Below, one piece after another: positions 38,965 to 48,085 of a stretch of DNA of 48,085 bases; position 1 is the stretch's first letter, and each line of letters starts with the position of its first letter. A program made the position numbers and the translations under genes. The notes beneath the pieces were generated by a model. The model saw only the letters and a program-made list of their open reading frames with translations. It did not search any database and had not been told where the DNA came from. Source of the DNA: Gammaproteobacteria bacterium (GTDB taxonomy: Bacteria > Pseudomonadota > Gammaproteobacteria > Beggiatoales > Beggiatoaceae); assembly GCA_003645255.1 (NCBI GenBank), contig QNES01000010.1:1-48085 (forward strand). Reading direction: 5' to 3'.

Positions 38965-41691
38965 ATGCTACACCGTAGTATCGCTTTATTATTGTTGCTA
39001 AATTACTCACTGTCTGGGCTGGCGCAAAGTTGCACAGATGCCTGGGAAATGATTAATCCGAAAATAACCCTAGATTCTGTGAACACCCTCACTTATGCTC
39101 ATGATCGCTTTTTCGCTATTGGTTCAGGCGGTGTGATTTACAACAGTACAGATGGCGCTGTTTGGGAAAAAGAACGTGTTGGCACGAGTGACTATCTCAG
39201 CGATTTAACTTGGGGTAATGGATTGTATGTCAGCGTGTCTATCAATGGTAATATTTACACTAGTAAAGATGCACAAACATGGAGCCTAAGTTATCAGAAT
39301 GAAAACCAAGGTTCGTCTCTGAAAGCCATCATAAGGAACAGTAATCGTTTTGTTGCAATAGGTAGTGAATGGCATAACAGCAATCAGGCAATTGTCTTAA
39401 GTAGCCAGGATGGTTTATCCTGGCAACGCATCACTTTTCCTGAGTATGAATTCATGTATTTACATAGTGTCGCCAGCAACAGCGAAAGTTTTATTATTGG
39501 CGGCACTCAGTATCGGGAGAAATCACCCCCTGAAGCGATTTTTTTGCACAGCCAAGATGGTGTCCAATGGCAACGCCAAATTTTTTCTGAAGCGATTGTG
39601 ATTAATCGTATTATGTACGCGGGTCAATACTGGTTTTCATCTGGAAGTGGAGCGTCAGTTTCTGATAGCGGTTCTTTTAACAATAAGCTTTGGCGCAGCA
39701 GTGATGGTAAAAACTGGACAGTTGTCATTGATGGGGATGCTGCAAGGGTGACCAATGTAATCTGGGATGGCACCCAATATGTTGCTATGCAATCTAACCA
39801 AAATTTCACCGTCAGTGAGGATGGTGCTAACTGGCATAAGCTGGATACTCCATTTTATGGTAATAGCATGACTTGGGGCAAAGGCTGGCTGATGGTACTC
39901 AGCAATGGCAGCATTTATCGTAGCCAGGATGCACAACACTGGGATAACCCACTTAGCTTGACCAGCAACGTACTCAGTGCAGGCATTTGGGATGGAAACA
40001 AGTTTGTTGTAATAGATGTAGACACAGTGCTACACAGCGAAGAGGGTATTCACTGGCAGCAAAGCGCACAAAATAACCCGCTTGGAAACCAACAACTTTT
40101 TAAAAAACTGGTATGGAACGGCAGTCGTTATGTCGCCATCTCATACCGTTCTCCAAATCTGTTTATCAGCGAAGATGCGGCGCAATGGCAAGCTCATGAA
40201 ATAACAGGAGTGGAAAGGTTAAATGATCTCATCTGGGATGGCGAAAAATTTGTTGCTGTCGGTTACGATGGTGTAAATGCTATCGTTTTGACCAGTGCTG
40301 ATGGTAATCATTGGCAAACCGTTTATGTGCAAGCAGCAGGTGAGCAAAAAACGGAATTGTTATCTTTAACAACAACAGGCGCAGGTTTGCCTATCGCAGT
40401 CGGTTTCAGTCATGTTGGTGGGGCTTTTATAGCGAATAAAAGTGGCAGACCGCTGGTGGTCAAACAAGACGCGCAGGGCAAGTGGAATTATCAGTTGCTG
40501 GATTTGGGTGCGGACAGTGAGCGTTCCCAAAGTTTGAATGCAGTGGCTTGGAATGGTCAATCACTGTTAGCTGTTGGTTCTCAAAGCAATTATCGCAATG
40601 CAGACGGTACTTGGGTAGAATCCGTGCTATTAAGCATCAGCAGCAGTGATGGTAAGAGTTGGGAACAACATGAGATCAATTTGCCAGTTAGACCAGACTT
40701 GTTTAAAGATTTAGCCTGGGATGGAAAAAAATTTATTGCAGTTGGTTCAAACGGCATGCTGTTGACTACACCAGATGGAATATCATGGCAACAGCCTTTA
40801 AGCAACACCAATGCTTCTTTAAACCAGATAGTCGCAGACGGCGCTGCACCGTTAATTCTGGGAGATAGAGGTACCATTCTGCGTGGTCAGTGTGGGGAAG
40901 TAGCACAAATAGGACAATATGTTGACGATAAACTGTGGATTCGCGCTGTCATCCAGACGATGGAAAAAGGTCTGATAGAAGCTCGCTGGCAACTGGACGG
41001 TACAGATACCACAACGCGTGGCGACCGCGTCATATGGGGGCATTTCTATGCCGATCCGGAAAGCGTTGACTGGGGACATCCTGACAATCCTGATTTATTC
41101 GTCAAAATATGGTACGATGCCAGCGGTCGTCTGGATGTGAATTATTTCCATGTCTCAGTGCCGGAGATCATGGTGTATAGTGCTTACGATGGTGATCCTG
41201 CCCAGCCTGATAGTTACAGCCGCCTCAATATGTGGCAGCAGCGCTATGTGCGGCATTATTTTGAGCAAGGTCAAAGCTATCAGGAAATACCACCACTGAA
41301 TAGCACAGTCACTGATGATGGTACACCGCAACTGAGTTCTTCTACCCTGGATCAACTCAGGATTAGCACCCAGATTCACAGCGAAACCGCCGGCATATTC
41401 GATGGACTCTGGCAACTGGGCGGACAAGCACAAACATCGCGTGGCGACCGCGTTTTATGGGGGCATTTCTACGCCGATCCGCAGCAAGTGAATTGGGGCA
41501 ATCTGAATAACCCCGATATGTTTGTCAAAATCTGGTTTGATTTCAGCGGGCGTATTGATGTGAACTATTTTCATGTCTCTGTTCCTGACATCGGGGTGTT
41601 TTCTGATTATCCGGCAGACGGAACCTTTGATCAAAAACATCTAACTGGGATGTCCAGCCGCTATCAACGCCATGAATTTTGGCTGAAATAA
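38965..41691 (+). CDS. Secreted beta-propeller (BNR/Ycf48-like) protein with duplicated C-terminal domain
   Basis: 908 residues with a signal peptide (MLHRSIALLLLLNYSLSGLAQS) and TAGGAG before the ATG. Residues ~40-640 hold a dozen or so repeats of the form W.G..FVAVG..G.I..S.DG..W (for example KKFIAVGSNGMLLTTPDGIS), the pattern of sialidase-type/Ycf48 propeller blades. From ~650 to the end are two ~115-residue domains sharing RGDRVIWGHFYADP, NPDLFVKIWYD and GRLDVNYFHVSVP, about 140 residues apart, which I do not recognise; they look like beta-sandwich modules. There are few cysteines (C23, C in LRGQCGEV). Probably periplasmic or cell-surface. The gene is bracketed by the two 128-bp elements; base use is somewhat more GC-rich than its neighbours. 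Confidence 0.85.
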   Translation: MLHRSIALLLLLNYSLSGLAQSCTDAWEMINPKITLDSVNTLTYAHDRFFAIGSGGVIYNSTDGAVWEKERVGTSDYLSDLTWGNGLYVSVSINGNIYTSKDAQTWSLSYQNENQGSSLKAIIRNSNRFVAIGSEWHNSNQAIVLSSQDGLSWQRITFPEYEFMYLHSVASNSESFIIGGTQYREKSPPEAIFLHSQDGVQWQRQIFSEAIVINRIMYAGQYWFSSGSGASVSDSGSFNNKLWRSSDGKNWTVVIDGDAARVTNVIWDGTQYVAMQSNQNFTVSEDGANWHKLDTPFYGNSMTWGKGWLMVLSNGSIYRSQDAQHWDNPLSLTSNVLSAGIWDGNKFVVIDVDTVLHSEEGIHWQQSAQNNPLGNQQLFKKLVWNGSRYVAISYRSPNLFISEDAAQWQAHEITGVERLNDLIWDGEKFVAVGYDGVNAIVLTSADGNHWQTVYVQAAGEQKTELLSLTTTGAGLPIAVGFSHVGGAFIANKSGRPLVVKQDAQGKWNYQLLDLGADSERSQSLNAVAWNGQSLLAVGSQSNYRNADGTWVESVLLSISSSDGKSWEQHEINLPVRPDLFKDLAWDGKKFIAVGSNGMLLTTPDGISWQQPLSNTNASLNQIVADGAAPLILGDRGTILRGQCGEVAQIGQYVDDKLWIRAVIQTMEKGLIEARWQLDGTDTTTRGDRVIWGHFYADPESVDWGHPDNPDLFVKIWYDASGRLDVNYFHVSVPEIMVYSAYDGDPAQPDSYSRLNMWQQRYVRHYFEQGQSYQEIPPLNSTVTDDGTPQLSSSTLDQLRISTQIHSETAGIFDGLWQLGGQAQTSRGDRVLWGHFYADPQQVNWGNLNNPDMFVKIWFDFSGRIDVNYFHVSVPDIGVFSDYPADGTFDQKHLTGMSSRYQRHEFWLK

Positions 41692-41834: not shown

Positions 41835-41962
41835 AATAATTGGGGTCAGAGTAAAATTAATAATTTATAGAAATAACCCAAAAAACTATCAATCAATATC
41901 TATACCTAATTGGTGATAAATGGTTCGCTACATAAATTAATGTGACTCTGACCCCAATTATT
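41835..41962. mobile_element. 128-bp inverted-repeat element (MITE-like), copy 2
   Basis: 127 of 128 bases match copy 1, in the same orientation, about 3.1 kb apart. It ends seven bases before the stop codon of the convergent methyltransferase gene. The preceding 41692-41834 stretch has a GTAGGGTGGGCATAG repeat end and a short non-initiated frame, no gene. Confidence 0.9.
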
Positions 41963-41968
41963 TTTAAT

Positions 41969-42709
41969 TCAGCGAGGATGCTTGGCTTGCAAAAACCAAA
42001 TATCATGCAACTGACGACCGTTTTGAAGATATACCCGCTTTTGGCCATCTTCCCGTTCCCGCTGTTGCCAAAAATCAATGTATGGCTGCGTACATTCATC
42101 GGTTAGTTCCATGCTAATCATTTGGCGAGTCTCCCACTGATGCCAATGGGTATTAAGCATACTTTCCGTTTCCCGCCAACCTTGTAATGAGGTGGCAATA
42201 GTCAACAAATGTCCGTCAGGTTTGAGATAGGTGCTGCTTTGACTGAGCATTGTGTCCAGCACAGTGCGTCCATCTCGTCCAGATATTTCAAAGTCATTTC
42301 GGCTATTCTGCTCTTGAGTAAAACACTCAAACTCTGGTAACACTGGTGGATTGCTGAAAATCAAATCAAACCTACCAATATCCGCTGAACCTAGGGCTTG
42401 CAACAAATTAGAACAACGAAAGTCTGTCTTAACCATCTCTAGGCCGTTGTTGTGCCAGTTGTATTGAGACAAAGCAATAGCTTGCTGGTTTATATCTAAC
42501 CCAGTCACCAGCTTTGCACCTAGTTTCGCTGCCAAAATCGCAAGCACCCCGCTTCCCAAGCCAAGTTCAAGCACTTGATCGCCCGGTTTGATTAATTTAG
42601 CTAAGTGTGAAGCGATGTTCTGTGCAAAAGCAGTTGGTGCCCAAACCATGGGATGAAGCTGCAATTGGATAGAAATATCGCCAAAAGTAAAGACTGTATC
42701 AGTTTGCAT
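41969..42709 (-). CDS. Class I SAM-dependent methyltransferase, PrmC/RsmC-like
   Basis: 246 residues. SAM-binding motif I is VLELGLGSGVLAILAAKLGA, followed by GLDINQQAIALSQYN with the acidic ribose-binding residue. Motif IV reads FSNPPVLPEF, an NPP(x) signature used by enzymes that methylate planar nitrogens (glutamine side chains or adenine/guanine exocyclic amines). It lacks the N-terminal domains of PrmC and RsmC. It starts ten bases after the other methyltransferase ends; the two share an operon. Given the diaminopropionate genes upstream, it may decorate a small metabolite, but a protein or nucleic-acid substrate is equally possible. Start ATG 42709. Confidence 0.8.
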   Translation of the reverse strand: MQTDTVFTFGDISIQLQLHPMVWAPTAFAQNIASHLAKLIKPGDQVLELGLGSGVLAILAAKLGAKLVTGLDINQQAIALSQYNWHNNGLEMVKTDFRCSNLLQALGSADIGRFDLIFSNPPVLPEFECFTQEQNSRNDFEISGRDGRTVLDTMLSQSSTYLKPDGHLLTIATSLQGWRETESMLNTHWHQWETRQMISMELTDECTQPYIDFWQQREREDGQKRVYLQNGRQLHDIWFLQAKHPR

Positions 42710-42719
42710 TTCGATTACC

Positions 42720-43445
42720 CTAATCAGGAGCAGTGAAGACCATGTAACGTTTGTCCGGCGAGATCACTGGTTTGGTAAATCCTTCAGCTTGCAATGCACT
42801 CTCAAAGACTGAATTATCAATGTAGGCTAAGGTCAATTTTTGATAACATAACCGTTCATGATTGCTATTGCGAACAAATATATACTCTTTTTCAAAGACA
42901 CCATTGCCTTTGTCATGAATGCGTTGCTCATAGGTCACATCCTGCGGCAAGTCCATAATCTTATTACAATGTGCATCCTGCATACTAAGCACCAGTTGAC
43001 CTTTGGGTGCGATATGCCGAACAACGCAGCGGATACTTTTGAGTACTTCGGCTTGATCTGGTAAATGACCGCAATAGCCGAACTTCCCGTCCTCCCACCA
43101 GACTCCGTACCAAACCCCGCCGTTAGAAATAATAGCTTGGTAAGTTTGCCCGAGATCAAAATCTGTCACATCCGTTTGAAATAGCGAAACCTCAGAGCCG
43201 AGCAAATTTTTAGCCTGATCGAGCATGGCTTGGGTATGATCTATACCGGTGACTTGATAACCTAAATCTAATAGCTCTTTGAGCATCAGACCAGTACCAG
43301 CTCCTATTTCAAGGATTTTGGCCTTGGGAGGCAATATAGTGGCTAAAGTTTGTGCTTGAGCTTGGTAGTCATAATAACCTCCAAGCATAAGTAGATTATA
43401 ACACTCAGCCATAGTGTCGTATTGATTGATACTTTCTTTGGACAT
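42720..43445 (-). CDS. Class I SAM-dependent methyltransferase
   Basis: 241 residues. Motif I KILEIGAGTGLMLKELLDLG, then GIDHTQAMLDQAKNL (motif II) and AIISNGGVWYGV (motif IV area) identify a small-molecule-type SAM methyltransferase (Methyltransf_25/11-like). The YDTMAECYNLLM opening is the common lid helix. No good ribosome site is seen before ATG 43445. A 41-bp copy of its start region recurs at 45593-45633. Substrate unknown; likely part of the same locus as the PP-loop protein upstream. Confidence 0.85.
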   Translation of the reverse strand: MSKESINQYDTMAECYNLLMLGGYYDYQAQAQTLATILPPKAKILEIGAGTGLMLKELLDLGYQVTGIDHTQAMLDQAKNLLGSEVSLFQTDVTDFDLGQTYQAIISNGGVWYGVWWEDGKFGYCGHLPDQAEVLKSIRCVVRHIAPKGQLVLSMQDAHCNKIMDLPQDVTYEQRIHDKGNGVFEKEYIFVRNSNHERLCYQKLTLAYIDNSVFESALQAEGFTKPVISPDKRYMVFTAPD

Positions 43446-43531
43446 AAAATTTTATAAATAGTAAGTATTGTTTCGCAAAAAAATCAAGGAGTGCAGCATC
43501 AGACAATTTCCAAACTTAAAGCGCGACAAAT

Positions 43532-43544
43532 ACCTGTCAGGTTT
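43532..43544. repeat. Half of a CCTGACAGGT hairpin
   Basis: ACCTGTCAGGTTT in the gap between the PP-loop gene and the methyltransferase pair; one arm of the family at 14744 and 45360. Confidence 0.55.
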
Positions 43545-43642
43545 GGTTTTACAAAGTATCGCAACTTATGTTGATAGCCACACACAAATAACAACACAAA
43601 ATTGAGAGCAGTTCATGTTTTAGCTTCATCATGGTTCAGTAC

Positions 43643-45118
43643 TTATTGTTCCAGCACCGGACGAATTTTCTGCCACAACCAATCTGGCATGGTATGATGG
43701 GTTTGATACAACTGAGAATACTGATTCTCAATTTCTGCAAAATATTGTTCAACCGCTTCTGCACCGCCTTTTCGTAATGGGTTGAGGACCTCTCTCTCAA
43801 ATAACTCCATTGCCAGACCTTTCACGCCTTTTAAATGCAGCTTGTAAAAATATAATTGAGTTTCCTCTGGAAGCCCTACACATTCCCAAGCAACGTATCC
43901 GTTAAGCCCAAGAAGATCAGCCCAAACAGGTAAATTTTCTGCCATGTCCAAAAGATCATTTTTAAATGCCTTAATTGTTTTCTCTATATCGCCATAGGCA
44001 GAAAAACCAGAAAATACGTAACAACATTTTTCACATTTACAACACCAAGGCTTTTGTATATTACAAGAATTAGTGGCATAAGGTAGGCTGTCTTCAAACT
44101 TAAATAGCAATTCAAAAATCTTTACATCATGAATCGGTTTAGTTAAGCTGGCTGAATTAACACCTTGAAACATCCGTTTCATCAGCTGTGATACCGCTTT
44201 GTGATAAGTGAAACTTTTAGTCCATTGGTGAGAAATTTCTTCCTTGGATTCAGGCTCAATTAAGTTAAAAGCGTCAGCACTTTTTTCATGCCCTAAAACT
44301 AATAATGGAATACCATGGATGACTTGAATTGGTGTCATAGCCATAGTAGTTAACAGGGTTTCTCCTGCTTCAGTTCGAAAGTGATTATTGCCAAAATAAT
44401 CCTTAGCTCTCTTAATAACATCTGTTTGACGCAAACGATTTTCCAGCCATGGATAATAATCATCATAAAAGTAAACACCGTGACTATTTTTATAATTTAA
44501 ACGGCTGCTTACCTCTTTAAAAAGCTGTTCTTGGGCTAGATCATCACCATAAGTATCGTGAAAATATGTGACAATATCGTATTTTACTTCTGCGGCTTCC
44601 AAAATTTTACTGCATAATAGACTATCTTTGCCTGATCCTGAACCTAAAATAACTTCTACCGGATTTTCTACAGTGGCTACTGACCACAAAGGATAAATAG
44701 CATCTTTTCCTAGCTCTGAGGAATCGACTACAAATTTTGGATGCTGGTAGGAAATTTTTCCTAATTGATAACGATGTTGGCTCCAATGTCCTCGCATGGC
44801 TACTTTCAGAAATTCCAAAAGTTTCTGATCTATATATCGGCTGTATTTTTCAAAATTTAATCGACTGGGAAGTATAGCACCAAATCTCATGCTACAAAGC
44901 ACCGCTAGTAATGTTGCAAAATGTTTTGCACTCTCCAAAGATTTCAAAGCTGGATCGGAAAATTTTATGGAATTGTACCGTATTGAACAGCGAATTGGTT
45001 TACCTTCAACTAAATAAACAAACTGAATAATATCTTGATTAACCGATACCTGCTCTAAATAAACTTCTTCAACTAAAAAGTCATCAAATACATGACAACT
45101 AACTCTACTTTTTTCCAT
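43643..45118 (-). CDS. PP-loop ATP-pyrophosphatase family protein, MurL-like
   Basis: 491 residues. The PP-loop motif GSGSGKDSLLCSKIL (SGxGKDS) identifies an N-type ATP pyrophosphatase that would adenylate a carboxylate or carbonyl and release PPi. A cysteine cluster, CNIQKPWCCKCEKCCYVF, and the later LLGLNGYVAWECVGLPEE resemble, from memory, the UDP-MurNAc-L-Ala-L-Glu epimerase MurL, which uses ATP to epimerise a terminal glutamate. No murD2 partner is adjacent, however. The start ATG 45118 has GAGG at long spacing. It lies between sbnB/sbnA and two methyltransferases on one strand. Either a peptidoglycan epimerase or an activating enzyme for a diaminopropionate-derived compound. Confidence 0.7.
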   Translation of the reverse strand: MEKSRVSCHVFDDFLVEEVYLEQVSVNQDIIQFVYLVEGKPIRCSIRYNSIKFSDPALKSLESAKHFATLLAVLCSMRFGAILPSRLNFEKYSRYIDQKLLEFLKVAMRGHWSQHRYQLGKISYQHPKFVVDSSELGKDAIYPLWSVATVENPVEVILGSGSGKDSLLCSKILEAAEVKYDIVTYFHDTYGDDLAQEQLFKEVSSRLNYKNSHGVYFYDDYYPWLENRLRQTDVIKRAKDYFGNNHFRTEAGETLLTTMAMTPIQVIHGIPLLVLGHEKSADAFNLIEPESKEEISHQWTKSFTYHKAVSQLMKRMFQGVNSASLTKPIHDVKIFELLFKFEDSLPYATNSCNIQKPWCCKCEKCCYVFSGFSAYGDIEKTIKAFKNDLLDMAENLPVWADLLGLNGYVAWECVGLPEETQLYFYKLHLKGVKGLAMELFEREVLNPLRKGGAEAVEQYFAEIENQYSQLYQTHHTMPDWLWQKIRPVLEQ

Positions 45119-45536
45119 TCTTTATTATTACCTCACTTTGTTTTTCCAATTGCACCACGATGTTTACCCACAGCATCATATAAATCAACACAGCTTTTCC
45201 CTTAAAATAGGTAATCTGAATTTCTTTGTGAGTTGGCTGATATATTATATATGTTTACTTTACGCTTTTTCAACCACATTGATTATTTAGTGCAATAAAG
45301 GGGGGCTGAGTAGTTACAAATTAATGTTGTATAATGTTGTATAAAGACAGGAGTTACACAGACCTGTCATGTTTCCAAAACCTGACAGGTCTTTTCGCAG
45401 GGCCAAAACTTTTCTAGCTAACTATTAAATAGTTTCATAAAATATTTATTTTGTCAATGCGTAAGTCCTAAATGATAACATCACTGATGTAATTATTGTA
45501 GCGCATCAATATCTGAATCAAACTTACTTGCAACCT
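45119..45536. other. Intergenic region between the PP-loop gene and a duplicated gene start
   Basis: About 400 bases without a gene. It contains a duplication of ATGTTGTATAA (near 45323-45345) and the hairpin at 45360. A promoter for the PP-loop gene is expected here but none stands out. Confidence 0.45.
45360..45392. repeat. CCTGACAGGT hairpin
   Basis: AGACCTGTCATGTTT (45360-45374) and AAACCTGACAGGTCT (45378-45392), one mismatch, followed by TTTT. Could terminate the sbnA-sbnB transcript only if read from the plus strand; more likely just a dispersed repeat. Confidence 0.75.
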
Positions 45537-45629
45537 CTATCTACACTTATGATTGCCCATTTTGAACCAATCCCATTCAATGACCCCAGTACCCATAGCG
45601 TCGTATTGATTGATACTTTCTTTGGACAT
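45537..45629 (-). pseudogene. Duplicated start of the methyltransferase gene fused to unrelated sequence
   Basis: MSKESINQYDAMGTGVIEWD is followed by a stop after 30 codons. The first eleven codons and preceding bases repeat the start of the gene at 43445 (41 bases, one mismatch), then similarity ends. It is a rearrangement scar rather than a working gene. Confidence 0.7.
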
Positions 45630-45638
45630 AAAACAGTT

Positions 45639-46673
45639 TTAAGAATTGCTGTTAATCCATGACTCAGGTAAGAAAGATGGTACATTCATTCCTTTTCCAG
45701 TTTCTTTGGCAAACTTTGAAACCGATTGCGCTAAAGCAATATCCAAAATACCCAATCCAAATGGACTGAAAATCGAAATATCAGTACTTGCTTTTCGTAC
45801 TGGTTGTTTGCCTGATAAAATAGAACCTAATGAACAGCGGATAAAGTTACGATTTCCAACTTGTTGTTCCGCTAAGTGCAGTGATGTTTGAGCACGGCAT
45901 ACATGATCAATGTCATCTGTAACATTATCGCATTGCAAAATAATTTCCGGGGTTATATCCCGCAATGAAACATTTAAAATCGTACTACCAGGTTGGAGTT
46001 GTGAAATATCCGCAAGATAAGCTGTTCCAACGGTTGTTGCGAGTGAAACCAGTTCAGTTTGGCTCAACATCGCTGGTATATCCTTTACGATGGTAACTTC
46101 TTCTATCTGTTCAAATTGCTGCTGTATTTTGTCTCTAAAAAGCTCTGCACGATCAATGTCAATATCATAAAGAACTAACTGATTTAACTGTGGAAATACT
46201 GCCATGAGAAAACGGATAATCTCAAAGTTTATAAACCCACAGCCCAAAATACCGACTTTGGTTAATTTTTTATCAGCGTGTAAGCATTGAGCTGCAAGTG
46301 CCGCACTTGCCGCCGTTCGTTTTCCGTTAATGATGGATGCATCCATGAAGACTTCAGGCTGCCCGGTTTCCATCGAATTAAGAACAATTGTTGCCGATGC
46401 TCTATTTATCCCTTGTTGCAAATTTTTCGGAAATGAGGCAACCCATTTTATTCCGGCAACATTAAATTGACCGCCCAAAAAAGCGGGTAGAGCAATAATC
46501 CTGTTCAGCTTATCGTCAGGAAAACGTAAAAAAGAGGAATGGGGAACCGCACTTTCCCCACGTTCATGCACTTTATACGCATCACTGACAATTTGAATAA
46601 TATCCTTTTCTCGTCCTTCAAGAAGAGATATTACCTCATTTGCTGTTATTATTAAGAGATCACCTTGGTTCAT
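45639..46673 (-). CDS. sbnB: N-((2S)-2-amino-2-carboxyethyl)-L-glutamate dehydrogenase SbnB
   Basis: 344 residues, ornithine-cyclodeaminase/mu-crystallin fold. SbnB oxidatively splits the SbnA product into L-2,3-diaminopropionate and 2-oxoglutarate with NAD. Seen: the substrate region HSSFLRFP and GIKWVASFPKN, INRASATIVLN, KRTAASAALAAQCL, and the dinucleotide loop GILGCGFINFEI. These match SbnB rather than ornithine cyclodeaminase. AAGGTGAG lies eight bases upstream of ATG 46673. The gene follows sbnA by 15 bases, so they form one operon, as in staphyloferrin B and other diaminopropionate-using pathways. The rest of a siderophore pathway is not in view. Confidence 0.9.
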   Translation of the reverse strand: MNQGDLLIITANEVISLLEGREKDIIQIVSDAYKVHERGESAVPHSSFLRFPDDKLNRIIALPAFLGGQFNVAGIKWVASFPKNLQQGINRASATIVLNSMETGQPEVFMDASIINGKRTAASAALAAQCLHADKKLTKVGILGCGFINFEIIRFLMAVFPQLNQLVLYDIDIDRAELFRDKIQQQFEQIEEVTIVKDIPAMLSQTELVSLATTVGTAYLADISQLQPGSTILNVSLRDITPEIILQCDNVTDDIDHVCRAQTSLHLAEQQVGNRNFIRCSLGSILSGKQPVRKASTDISIFSPFGLGILDIALAQSVSKFAKETGKGMNVPSFLPESWINSNS

Positions 46674-46688
46674 ATTGAAAACTCACCT

Positions 46689-47669
46689 TTATAAAAAACG
46701 TTCTATGTTGCCAAAATGCTGCGTTACCCATTCATCAGAATAGATCGTATCCAAATAGCGTTCGCCTCGATCCGCAAAGATGAGTACACAAGTACTGCCA
46801 GCGGGAATCCGATCCTTTATTTTGTCGAAAGCCATGAGTACCGCACCAGAAGAACCGCCCGCTAAAATCGCTTCTGTTTTCAACAAACGCCGACAACCTA
46901 TCACACAATCCAAATCCGTCACAAGTACATACTCATTTAACAAATTTTCCTTAAGAAACTTGGATTTAATAGAAGCTCCCATTCCGGGAACAAGGCGTGC
47001 TTTTTTTTCTCCTCCAAAAATGACACTGCCTTCAGCATCTACAGCAATCAATTTAGTTTCCAGCCCTTGATCATGAATGTAGTGAGCACATCCCATAATG
47101 GTACCACAGGTGCTGACGGCTCCAAAAAGATAGTTGGGAGCTTCTTTAAGTTCTCCAACAATTTCAGAAAATGTACCATCGTAATGTGCTCTTGGATTAT
47201 ACTCATTCATGTATTGATTAGGCCAAAAGCTATCTGAAAACTTTTCCATCAATGCTTGAACTCGTTTAATACGTGCCGGTAGATATTCTTTGGTTTCTGG
47301 ATCAGGCTCTGAAATCATTTCAATTTCGGCACCATAGACTTTAATAATGTTAAGGTTTTGTTTCGTTGTCTTGGGATCGACAACGCAAATAAAACGAAGA
47401 CCAAAATACTGGCAAACTTGAGCTAATCCAATTCCCAGATTACCAGAGCTAGATTCAATCACCACAGTATTGGGACCAATTTCACCTTTTTCCATAGCCT
47501 GCTTAATCATTTTAAGCGCAGGTCTATCTTTAATACTGCCGCTTGGATTAAATCCTTCTAATTTTGCAAAGACTCGAAAAGGCGAATCCTTGTAAATTTG
47601 TGTTAACTGAATAAGAGGTGTCGCACCAATTAGGGACAAAATACCTTTATGTTGTATCAAAACTTTCAC
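46689..47669 (-). CDS. sbnA: N-((2S)-2-amino-2-carboxyethyl)-L-glutamate synthase SbnA
   Basis: 326 residues, PLP fold type II (cysteine synthase family). SbnA joins O-phospho-L-serine and L-glutamate. The PLP lysine is K47 in FNPSGSIKDRPALKMI; VIESSSGNLGIGLAQV is the asparagine loop; the phosphate loop is in FGAVSTCGTIMGC. The GGSSGAVLMA segment near the C-terminus is typical. The start is GTG 47669 or TTG 47660; the AAGGTG site overlaps the former and is seven bases from the latter, so the TTG is favoured by spacing. Adjacent sbnB makes the assignment to diaminopropionate rather than cysteine synthesis strong. Confidence 0.92.
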   Translation of the reverse strand: MKVLIQHKGILSLIGATPLIQLTQIYKDSPFRVFAKLEGFNPSGSIKDRPALKMIKQAMEKGEIGPNTVVIESSSGNLGIGLAQVCQYFGLRFICVVDPKTTKQNLNIIKVYGAEIEMISEPDPETKEYLPARIKRVQALMEKFSDSFWPNQYMNEYNPRAHYDGTFSEIVGELKEAPNYLFGAVSTCGTIMGCAHYIHDQGLETKLIAVDAEGSVIFGGEKKARLVPGMGASIKSKFLKENLLNEYVLVTDLDCVIGCRRLLKTEAILAGGSSGAVLMAFDKIKDRIPAGSTCVLIFADRGERYLDTIYSDEWVTQHFGNIERFL

Positions 47670-47911: not shown

Positions 47912-48085
47912 CTAAAAATACAAGTGATGACTGTTCCTTTCATGTTCACTGGTTGAGAAATCTAGCATTTCATCCATTTGTTCAGCACGTTCTAGTATTT
48001 CATCTTCAGATTGTATGGGTGTTTGTGTCAGTTTCATTAAGTCGTTAAAATCTGAAAAATAGTTTTTAATTGCTTCATCAAACGA
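47912..48085 (-). CDS. 3' end of a hypothetical protein gene running off the window
   Basis: The last 57 codons are visible: SFDEAIKNYFSDFNDLMKLT, then PIQSEDEILERAEQMDEMLD and a short polar tail to TAG at 47912. The piece is acidic and probably helical. The frame is open to the window edge. No family can be assigned. It lies upstream of sbnA on the same strand, separated by about 240 bases and a repeat, so co-transcription is uncertain. Confidence 0.5.
   Translation of the reverse strand, partial: SFDEAIKNYFSDFNDLMKLTQTPIQSEDEILERAEQMDEMLDFSTSEHERNSHHLYF

Follow-up and report, generated by a model that had tools for sequence, protein, structure and literature searches.

Do the five consecutive minus-strand genes at one end of contig QNES01000010.1 of a Beggiatoaceae bacterium (Gammaproteobacteria; assembly GCA_003645255.1) serve a single biosynthetic pathway? 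The window analysed here is that complete contig (C10, 48085 bp) of a 4.41-Mb genome in 313 contigs, and the genes are sbnA, sbnB, a gene for a 491-aa ATP-pyrophosphatase-type (PP-loop) protein, and two S-adenosylmethionine (SAM) methyltransferase genes, MT1 and MT2. An earlier note had placed these genes on one strand at 41969-47669 and had named them as diaminopropionate synthesis genes, a MurL-like PP-loop enzyme with a cysteine cluster and two SAM methyltransferases; positions and strand agree with the list of open reading frames (ORFs) of the window, and the identities are correct. It had also proposed one pathway, free of nonribosomal peptide synthetases (NRPS), leading to a methylated diaminopropionate. 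We instead read the locus, with a probability of about 0.5, as a composite of three modules (sbnA-sbnB; PP-loop gene; MT1-MT2) and not as one demonstrated pathway. In the first module, SbnA and SbnB would make L-2,3-diaminopropionate (Dap). In the second, probably transcribed from its own promoter behind a hairpin, the PP-loop enzyme would use ATP to adenylate a small metabolite derived from an amino acid, at its carboxylate, and the activated acid would then be attacked by an amine (giving an amide, as with QueC and QatC) or epimerised (as with MurL). The third would supply small-molecule methyltransferases, of which MT1, MT2 or both probably act on the PP-loop enzyme's metabolite.

Judged by spacing, the five genes do not form a single tight operon: sbnA and sbnB are 15 bp apart and MT1 and MT2 10 bp, but 520 bp separate sbnB from the PP-loop gene and 197 bp separate the PP-loop gene from MT1. 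Both products of the first pair passed their NCBIfam equivalog cut-offs (SbnA, TIGR03945, 446.9 bits, cut-off 350; SbnB, TIGR03944, 431 bits, cut-off 326.9), with Staphylococcus aureus SbnA (5d84, E 2.7e-83) and an entry labelled putative ornithine cyclodeaminase (4m54, E 1.2e-35) as the respective best solved relatives; the window SbnA carries Tyr (NQYANE) where the 5d86 sequence has Phe (NQFANE). The order sbnA-sbnB is that of staphyloferrin B biosynthesis (PMC3179956), from which the window differs in having no synthetase genes beside sbnAB and no IucA/IucC homologue in the genome (PF04183 without a match). SbnB is rare, being found, with the window's genome counted, in 3/274 genomes of the class, 3/398 of the phylum and 3/43 of the family. 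The other two hits in the family are genomes of Ca. Parabeggiatoa type, whose SbnA and SbnB are 80-81% identical to those of the window. In one of them (G783, = G019) sbnA-sbnB stand directly behind a thioesterase-ended NRPS gene, which in turn follows genes for a 5044-aa NRPS and a 2265-aa protein in the same run; in the other (G790) they are flanked by polyketide synthase (PKS)/NRPS-type genes. The closest sbnAB relatives thus sit in NRPS/PKS assembly-line clusters, and MT1, MT2 and PP-loop genes are absent beside sbnAB in both genomes. More distant homologues accompany NRPS genes in Streptomyces and Sandaracinus (plasmid sbnB homologues) and, in Thioflavicoccus, sbnAB occur together with an ATP-grasp gene.

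Such company raises the alternative that SbnAB supply an NRPS whose genes lie at another place in the genome or past the contig end, the other three genes being unrelated neighbours. Condensation domains on three contigs of the window's genome (C263, C141 and C66), together with the assembly-line setting of the closest sbnAB and the plasmid homologues, argue for it. The observation that no NRPS or siderophore synthetase accompanies the locus holds for contig C10 and, as regards IucA/IucC, for the whole genome, but not for the condensation domains on those contigs; moreover, C10 ends 416 bp upstream of sbnA, so the missing NRPS at that place is due in part to the contig edge, and because the window is the entire contig there is no sequence past 48085 to inspect. 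On the other side, the NRPS fragments of the genome itself share only about 27-49% identity with the Ca. Parabeggiatoa NRPS, and their orthology to it is not supported; nor is the use of Dap by any of them, and the ORF at the contig edge was not the NRPS thioesterase end found upstream of sbnA in Ca. Parabeggiatoa. We consider this explanation quite unlikely.

Relatives of the PP-loop protein, of which the window's genome holds only one, were collected with an alignment-based scan of genome contigs (a single-sequence scan gave nothing), and the gene neighbours were surveyed in 66 loci (L049-L114; 61 with an intact PP-loop ORF) from Cyanobacteria, Thiotrichaceae, Bacteroidota and others. The closest proteins come from Moorena bouillonii (71% identity), Calothrix (54-55%), Okeania (52-53%) and Ca. 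Parabeggiatoa (44-45%). SbnB was not found in the Moorena and Okeania genomes, and the best SbnB-like matches in Calothrix reached 27-28%; the enzyme therefore has no general need for SbnAB-made Dap, and Dap would not have to be its substrate. Moorena and Ca. Parabeggiatoa have in common a two-gene unit, a methyltransferase followed by the PP-loop gene, with sbnAB not beside it and with methyltransferases 37% identical to each other. A 417-aa methyltransferase follows the PP-loop gene in Calothrix, and in Okeania the neighbourhood includes methyltransferases, an MT1 relative, a Sulfotransfer_5 protein and 2-oxoglutarate (2OG)-Fe(II) oxygenases. At the DNA level, Moorena resembles the window over the PP-loop ORF but not over its flanks.

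Two further arrangements were noted in Okeania: in L086 and L106 the PP-loop gene is immediately followed by 2-4 tandem copies from a single methyltransferase family, and in L050:9983-13668 a pair of PP-loop copies alternates with 2OG-Fe(II) oxygenases, the second copy being split and cut by the contig end. A small PP-loop subclade from Chlamydiae, Verrucomicrobia and Legionella (L096, L100, L101) lies directly behind a DAO-type FAD (flavin adenine dinucleotide) oxidoreductase.

The closest relatives of sbnAB and those of the PP-loop gene are found separately, which weakens the single-pathway proposal. According to it, SbnAB make Dap, the PP-loop enzyme either couples Dap to an activated carboxylate or epimerises a derivative of Dap, and the product is methylated by MT1 and MT2, all independently of an NRPS. 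Several observations nonetheless weigh against the composite reading. The five genes share strand and order within 5.7 kb; the window sbnA, unlike that of Ca. Parabeggiatoa, has no NRPS gene directly before it; and the promoter-like site upstream of the PP-loop gene is a consensus match only. Bacteroidetes MAG-29 (L081) carries, contiguously and on one strand, egtB-egtD-PPloop-sulfotransferase-sbnA-sbnB (EgtB 556 bits, cut-off 360; EgtD 303, cut-off 291; sbnA and sbnB 50% and 46% identical to those of the window) in a genome without any condensation domain. The PP-loop/sbnAB link thus recurs in another phylum, and chance adjacency is unlikely because SbnB is rare (roughly 66 loci x 0.01 x 12 kb/5 Mb = 0.002, an estimate whose SbnB rate of about 1% of genomes was not measured in Bacteroidota). 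The lack of IucA/IucC also favours a shared pathway, as does a duplicate of the MT1 start behind sbnB, which hints that MT1 may once have directly followed sbnB. Against this, the MAG-29 PP-loop protein belongs to a different clade (29% identity to that of the window), and the window's genome has NRPS genes. When the five-gene neighbourhood was sought in other genomes, then, the nearest relatives were found split, and contiguity of PP-loop gene and sbnAB, free of condensation domains, was seen in MAG-29. We regard one pathway as possible, though on balance doubtful.

MurL was the one NCBIfam match of the PP-loop protein (NF041275, residues 264-431), with a score of 57.9 bits where the cut-off is 700, and none of the Pfam families matched, PF06508 (QueC) included. 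The protein contains the PP-loop GSGSGKDS and a cysteine cluster (C352-x6-C359-x2-C362-x2-C365) that is invariant in 61/62 aligned relatives. Y190, G191, Q196 and D219 are present in 57-61/62 of these and absent from 11 canonical MurL (the MurL proteins of the same bacterial family as the window's genome), in all 11 of which E253 is replaced by His; D331 is replaced by Glu. In the tree, seven proteins, that of the window among them, form a clade (support 100/100) distinct from canonical MurL (100/100) and from the large clades that contain cyanobacterial and other homologues.

A role as a MurL-type peptidoglycan enzyme (PMC8788868, PMC5808125) could be argued from the NCBIfam match and the presence of a single such protein in a genome whose glutamate racemase appears only as a weak 35-bit match on contig C127. 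The protein shares with MurL a recognisable C-terminal half, the PP-loop and the S-C-N...W-C..C.K-C and E-C.G motifs. The score far below the equivalog cut-off, the separate clade, a YG....Q motif after the PP-loop that MurL lacks, and neighbours of the EgtB/EgtD and transporter kind in place of mur genes rule out MurL itself and make such a role very improbable. The profile comparison thus bears out a MurL-like PP-loop protein and not MurL proper. The arrangement that would have pointed to peptidoglycan, a PP-loop gene beside murD2, was not seen; no mur gene was recognised among the neighbours, and MurD homologues were not searched for.

An AlphaFold model of the protein (predicted local distance difference test, pLDDT, 92.4; predicted template modelling score, pTM, 0.91) has the QueC/QatC fold, the closest solved structures being QatC (Z 16.8; 315 residues aligned, model 15-440), QueC (14.6) and Cap9 (13.4), over 214-315 residues for Z 14.6-16.8. 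Its cysteines are in register with the zinc motif of a QueC, in a weak sequence match, and their spacing resembles the C(x)8CxxCxxC zinc motif of QueC; likewise, YG....Q resembles the QueC motif YxQxHxxE (PMC13329287). A zinc site has also been described in QatC (PMC13279940). The window protein differs from these PF06508-scaffold enzymes in its 10-14% identity, in the lack of a PF06508 match and in the absence of 7-deazaguanine and defence genes from its surroundings. The carboxylate substrate of QueC is converted with ammonia in steps that require ATP, the proposed substrate of QatC is a protein N-terminal glycine, and MurL releases AMP, with adenylation followed by epimerisation as the proposed course (PMC8788868). 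By analogy, and because the PP-loop is conserved, carboxylate adenylation would be the common first step, and the second may be amide formation or epimerisation. Most likely, the carboxylate that the protein would adenylate before one of these two steps belongs to a small amino-acid metabolite, usually an N-methylated one.

The N-methylated character of that metabolite is suggested by the survey, in which the recurrent neighbours were EgtB (19 of the 66 loci), DUF427 (18), EgtD (15), radical SAM proteins (8; a Radical_SAM match, the B12-dependent label resting on general appearance only), OpuC/betaine-type transporter parts (7) and further methyltransferases. Together, these neighbours point to N-methylated, ergothioneine-type amino acids as the usual chemistry of the family; egtB, egtD and the OpuC-like transporter EgtU are known from ergothioneine (PMC9732360). 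The window departs from this pattern in that egtB and egtD are absent around its PP-loop gene, and its clade is paired with other methyltransferases. A regex-based count of methyltransferases within 1.5 kb of PP-loop genes gave no significant enrichment (10/174 vs 8/251, p 0.15) and was used neither way, because the regex misses methyltransferases recognised by Pfam (L060, several EgtDs). In a metagenome-assembled genome related to MAG-29 (L083:5389-16359), egtB, egtD and the PP-loop gene are followed by a Lys/Orn N-monooxygenase, a cupin-methionyl-tRNA-synthetase fusion, which we take to resemble N-N bond-forming hydrazine synthetases, and an aspartate-dehydrogenase-like protein, as if the PP-loop unit accepted different amine-building modules.

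A PP-loop family of MurL/QueC/QatC type, apparently undescribed and recurrent in ergothioneine-type clusters, is a better supported and more novel finding than a single pathway; among the matches listed in a literature search that paired such enzymes with ergothioneine or EgtD, outside which most subscription journals lay, none mentions MurL, QueC or ATP pyrophosphatase. A wider proposal, that the family activates carboxylates in making or tailoring ergothioneine-type, N-methylated amino-acid metabolites and that a subset (the window, MAG-29) couples the metabolite to Dap without an NRPS, is tentative and rather unlikely in that full form. If the hint from the neighbours is right, sulfur bacteria, cyanobacteria and Bacteroidetes would have an unexplored route in which a relative of MurL and QueC uses ATP to modify ergothioneine-like betaines, in some cases together with diaminopropionate.

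MT1 and MT2 were recognised by Pfam as class I methyltransferases and assigned to no specific family by Pfam or NCBIfam; that they act on the PP-loop metabolite is probable because the PP-loop family often travels with methyltransferases. Weak solved relatives of MT1 include amino-sugar N,N-dimethyltransferases, and sequence relatives of it were found in two members of the bacterial family and, with 36% identity over 127 aa, near a PP-loop gene of Okeania. An MT1 relative in a family member immediately follows a gene resembling HMGL/homocitrate synthase, with nif-type genes, identified by eye, in the vicinity (L037:9824-11858). MT2 matched Pfam MTS (57.9 bits); a PrmC/HemK protein methyltransferase was rejected (65.9 bits vs 199 for PrmC, 59.8 vs 115.5 for the HemK family). 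An MT2 paralogue (30%) on contig C127 of the window's genome lies in a cluster (L130:148-7143) with an Asp/Glu racemase family protein, a further methyltransferase and two proteins similar to the radical SAM proteins that neighbour PP-loop genes in related organisms. Dap genes with methyltransferases nearby recall the hypothesis that β-N-methylamino-L-alanine (BMAA) arises by Dap methylation (review, PMC9414260), but MT1 relatives occur without sbnAB and Dap as a substrate of MT1 or MT2 is unsupported; sbnAB beside methyltransferases are by themselves no evidence for a methylated-Dap product.

Spacers, the hairpin and promoter-like site ahead of the PP-loop gene (Table 1), composition and the duplicated MT1 start suit a patchwork of acquired modules, and the locus may be transcribed in separate units. 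GC content at third codon positions is 0.30 for sbnAB, 0.28 for the PP-loop gene and 0.41-0.43 for MT1 and MT2 (reference 0.33, sd 0.04). The duplicate of the MT1 start lies 11 bp behind the sbnB stop; a search of the 520-bp gap for a decayed methyltransferase matched the first 12 codons of MT1 and no more. Rfam gave no match. An ancestral operon sbnA-sbnB-MT1-MT2 was considered on the strength of this duplicate, but the adjoining 33 bp match Ca. Parabeggiatoa DNA behind sbnB.

Table 1. Features of the five-gene locus (window coordinates)
Feature	Position	Strand	Remarks
sbnA	46689..47669	-	GTG start; N-(1-amino-1-carboxy-2-ethyl)-glutamate synthase, first step to Dap
sbnB	45639..46673	-	dehydrogenase releasing Dap
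PP-loop gene, 491 aa	43643..45118	-	ATP-dependent enzyme, MurL/QueC/QatC-like family
MT1	42720..43445	-	class I SAM methyltransferase (Methyltransf_25)
MT2	41969..42709	-	class I SAM methyltransferase (MTS type, NPP motif)
First copy of the 41-bp direct repeat, at the start of MT1	43409..43449	-	98% identity to the second copy; no such repeat expected by chance
Second copy of the 41-bp direct repeat, duplicating the MT1 start, just behind sbnB stop	45593..45633	-	
33 bp with 91% similarity to the stretch following sbnB in Ca. Parabeggiatoa (L129 8850-8882)	45561..45593	-	
Hairpin, 15-bp arms, between sbnB and PP-loop gene	45360..45392	-	inverted repeat 93% complementary; RNA fold -20.8 kcal/mol, z -2.2
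Promoter-like site upstream of PP-loop gene	45244..45273	-	11/12, best match in region; total matches not above chance
3' end of ORF at contig edge, upstream of sbnA	47912..48085	-	from sequence

Beyond MT2, a 27-bp inverted repeat (93%) lies just downstream of the gene (41835-41962), and a 908-aa secreted-looking repeat protein, for which a weak DUF6242 match was the only one obtained, is encoded on the opposite strand at 38965-41691.

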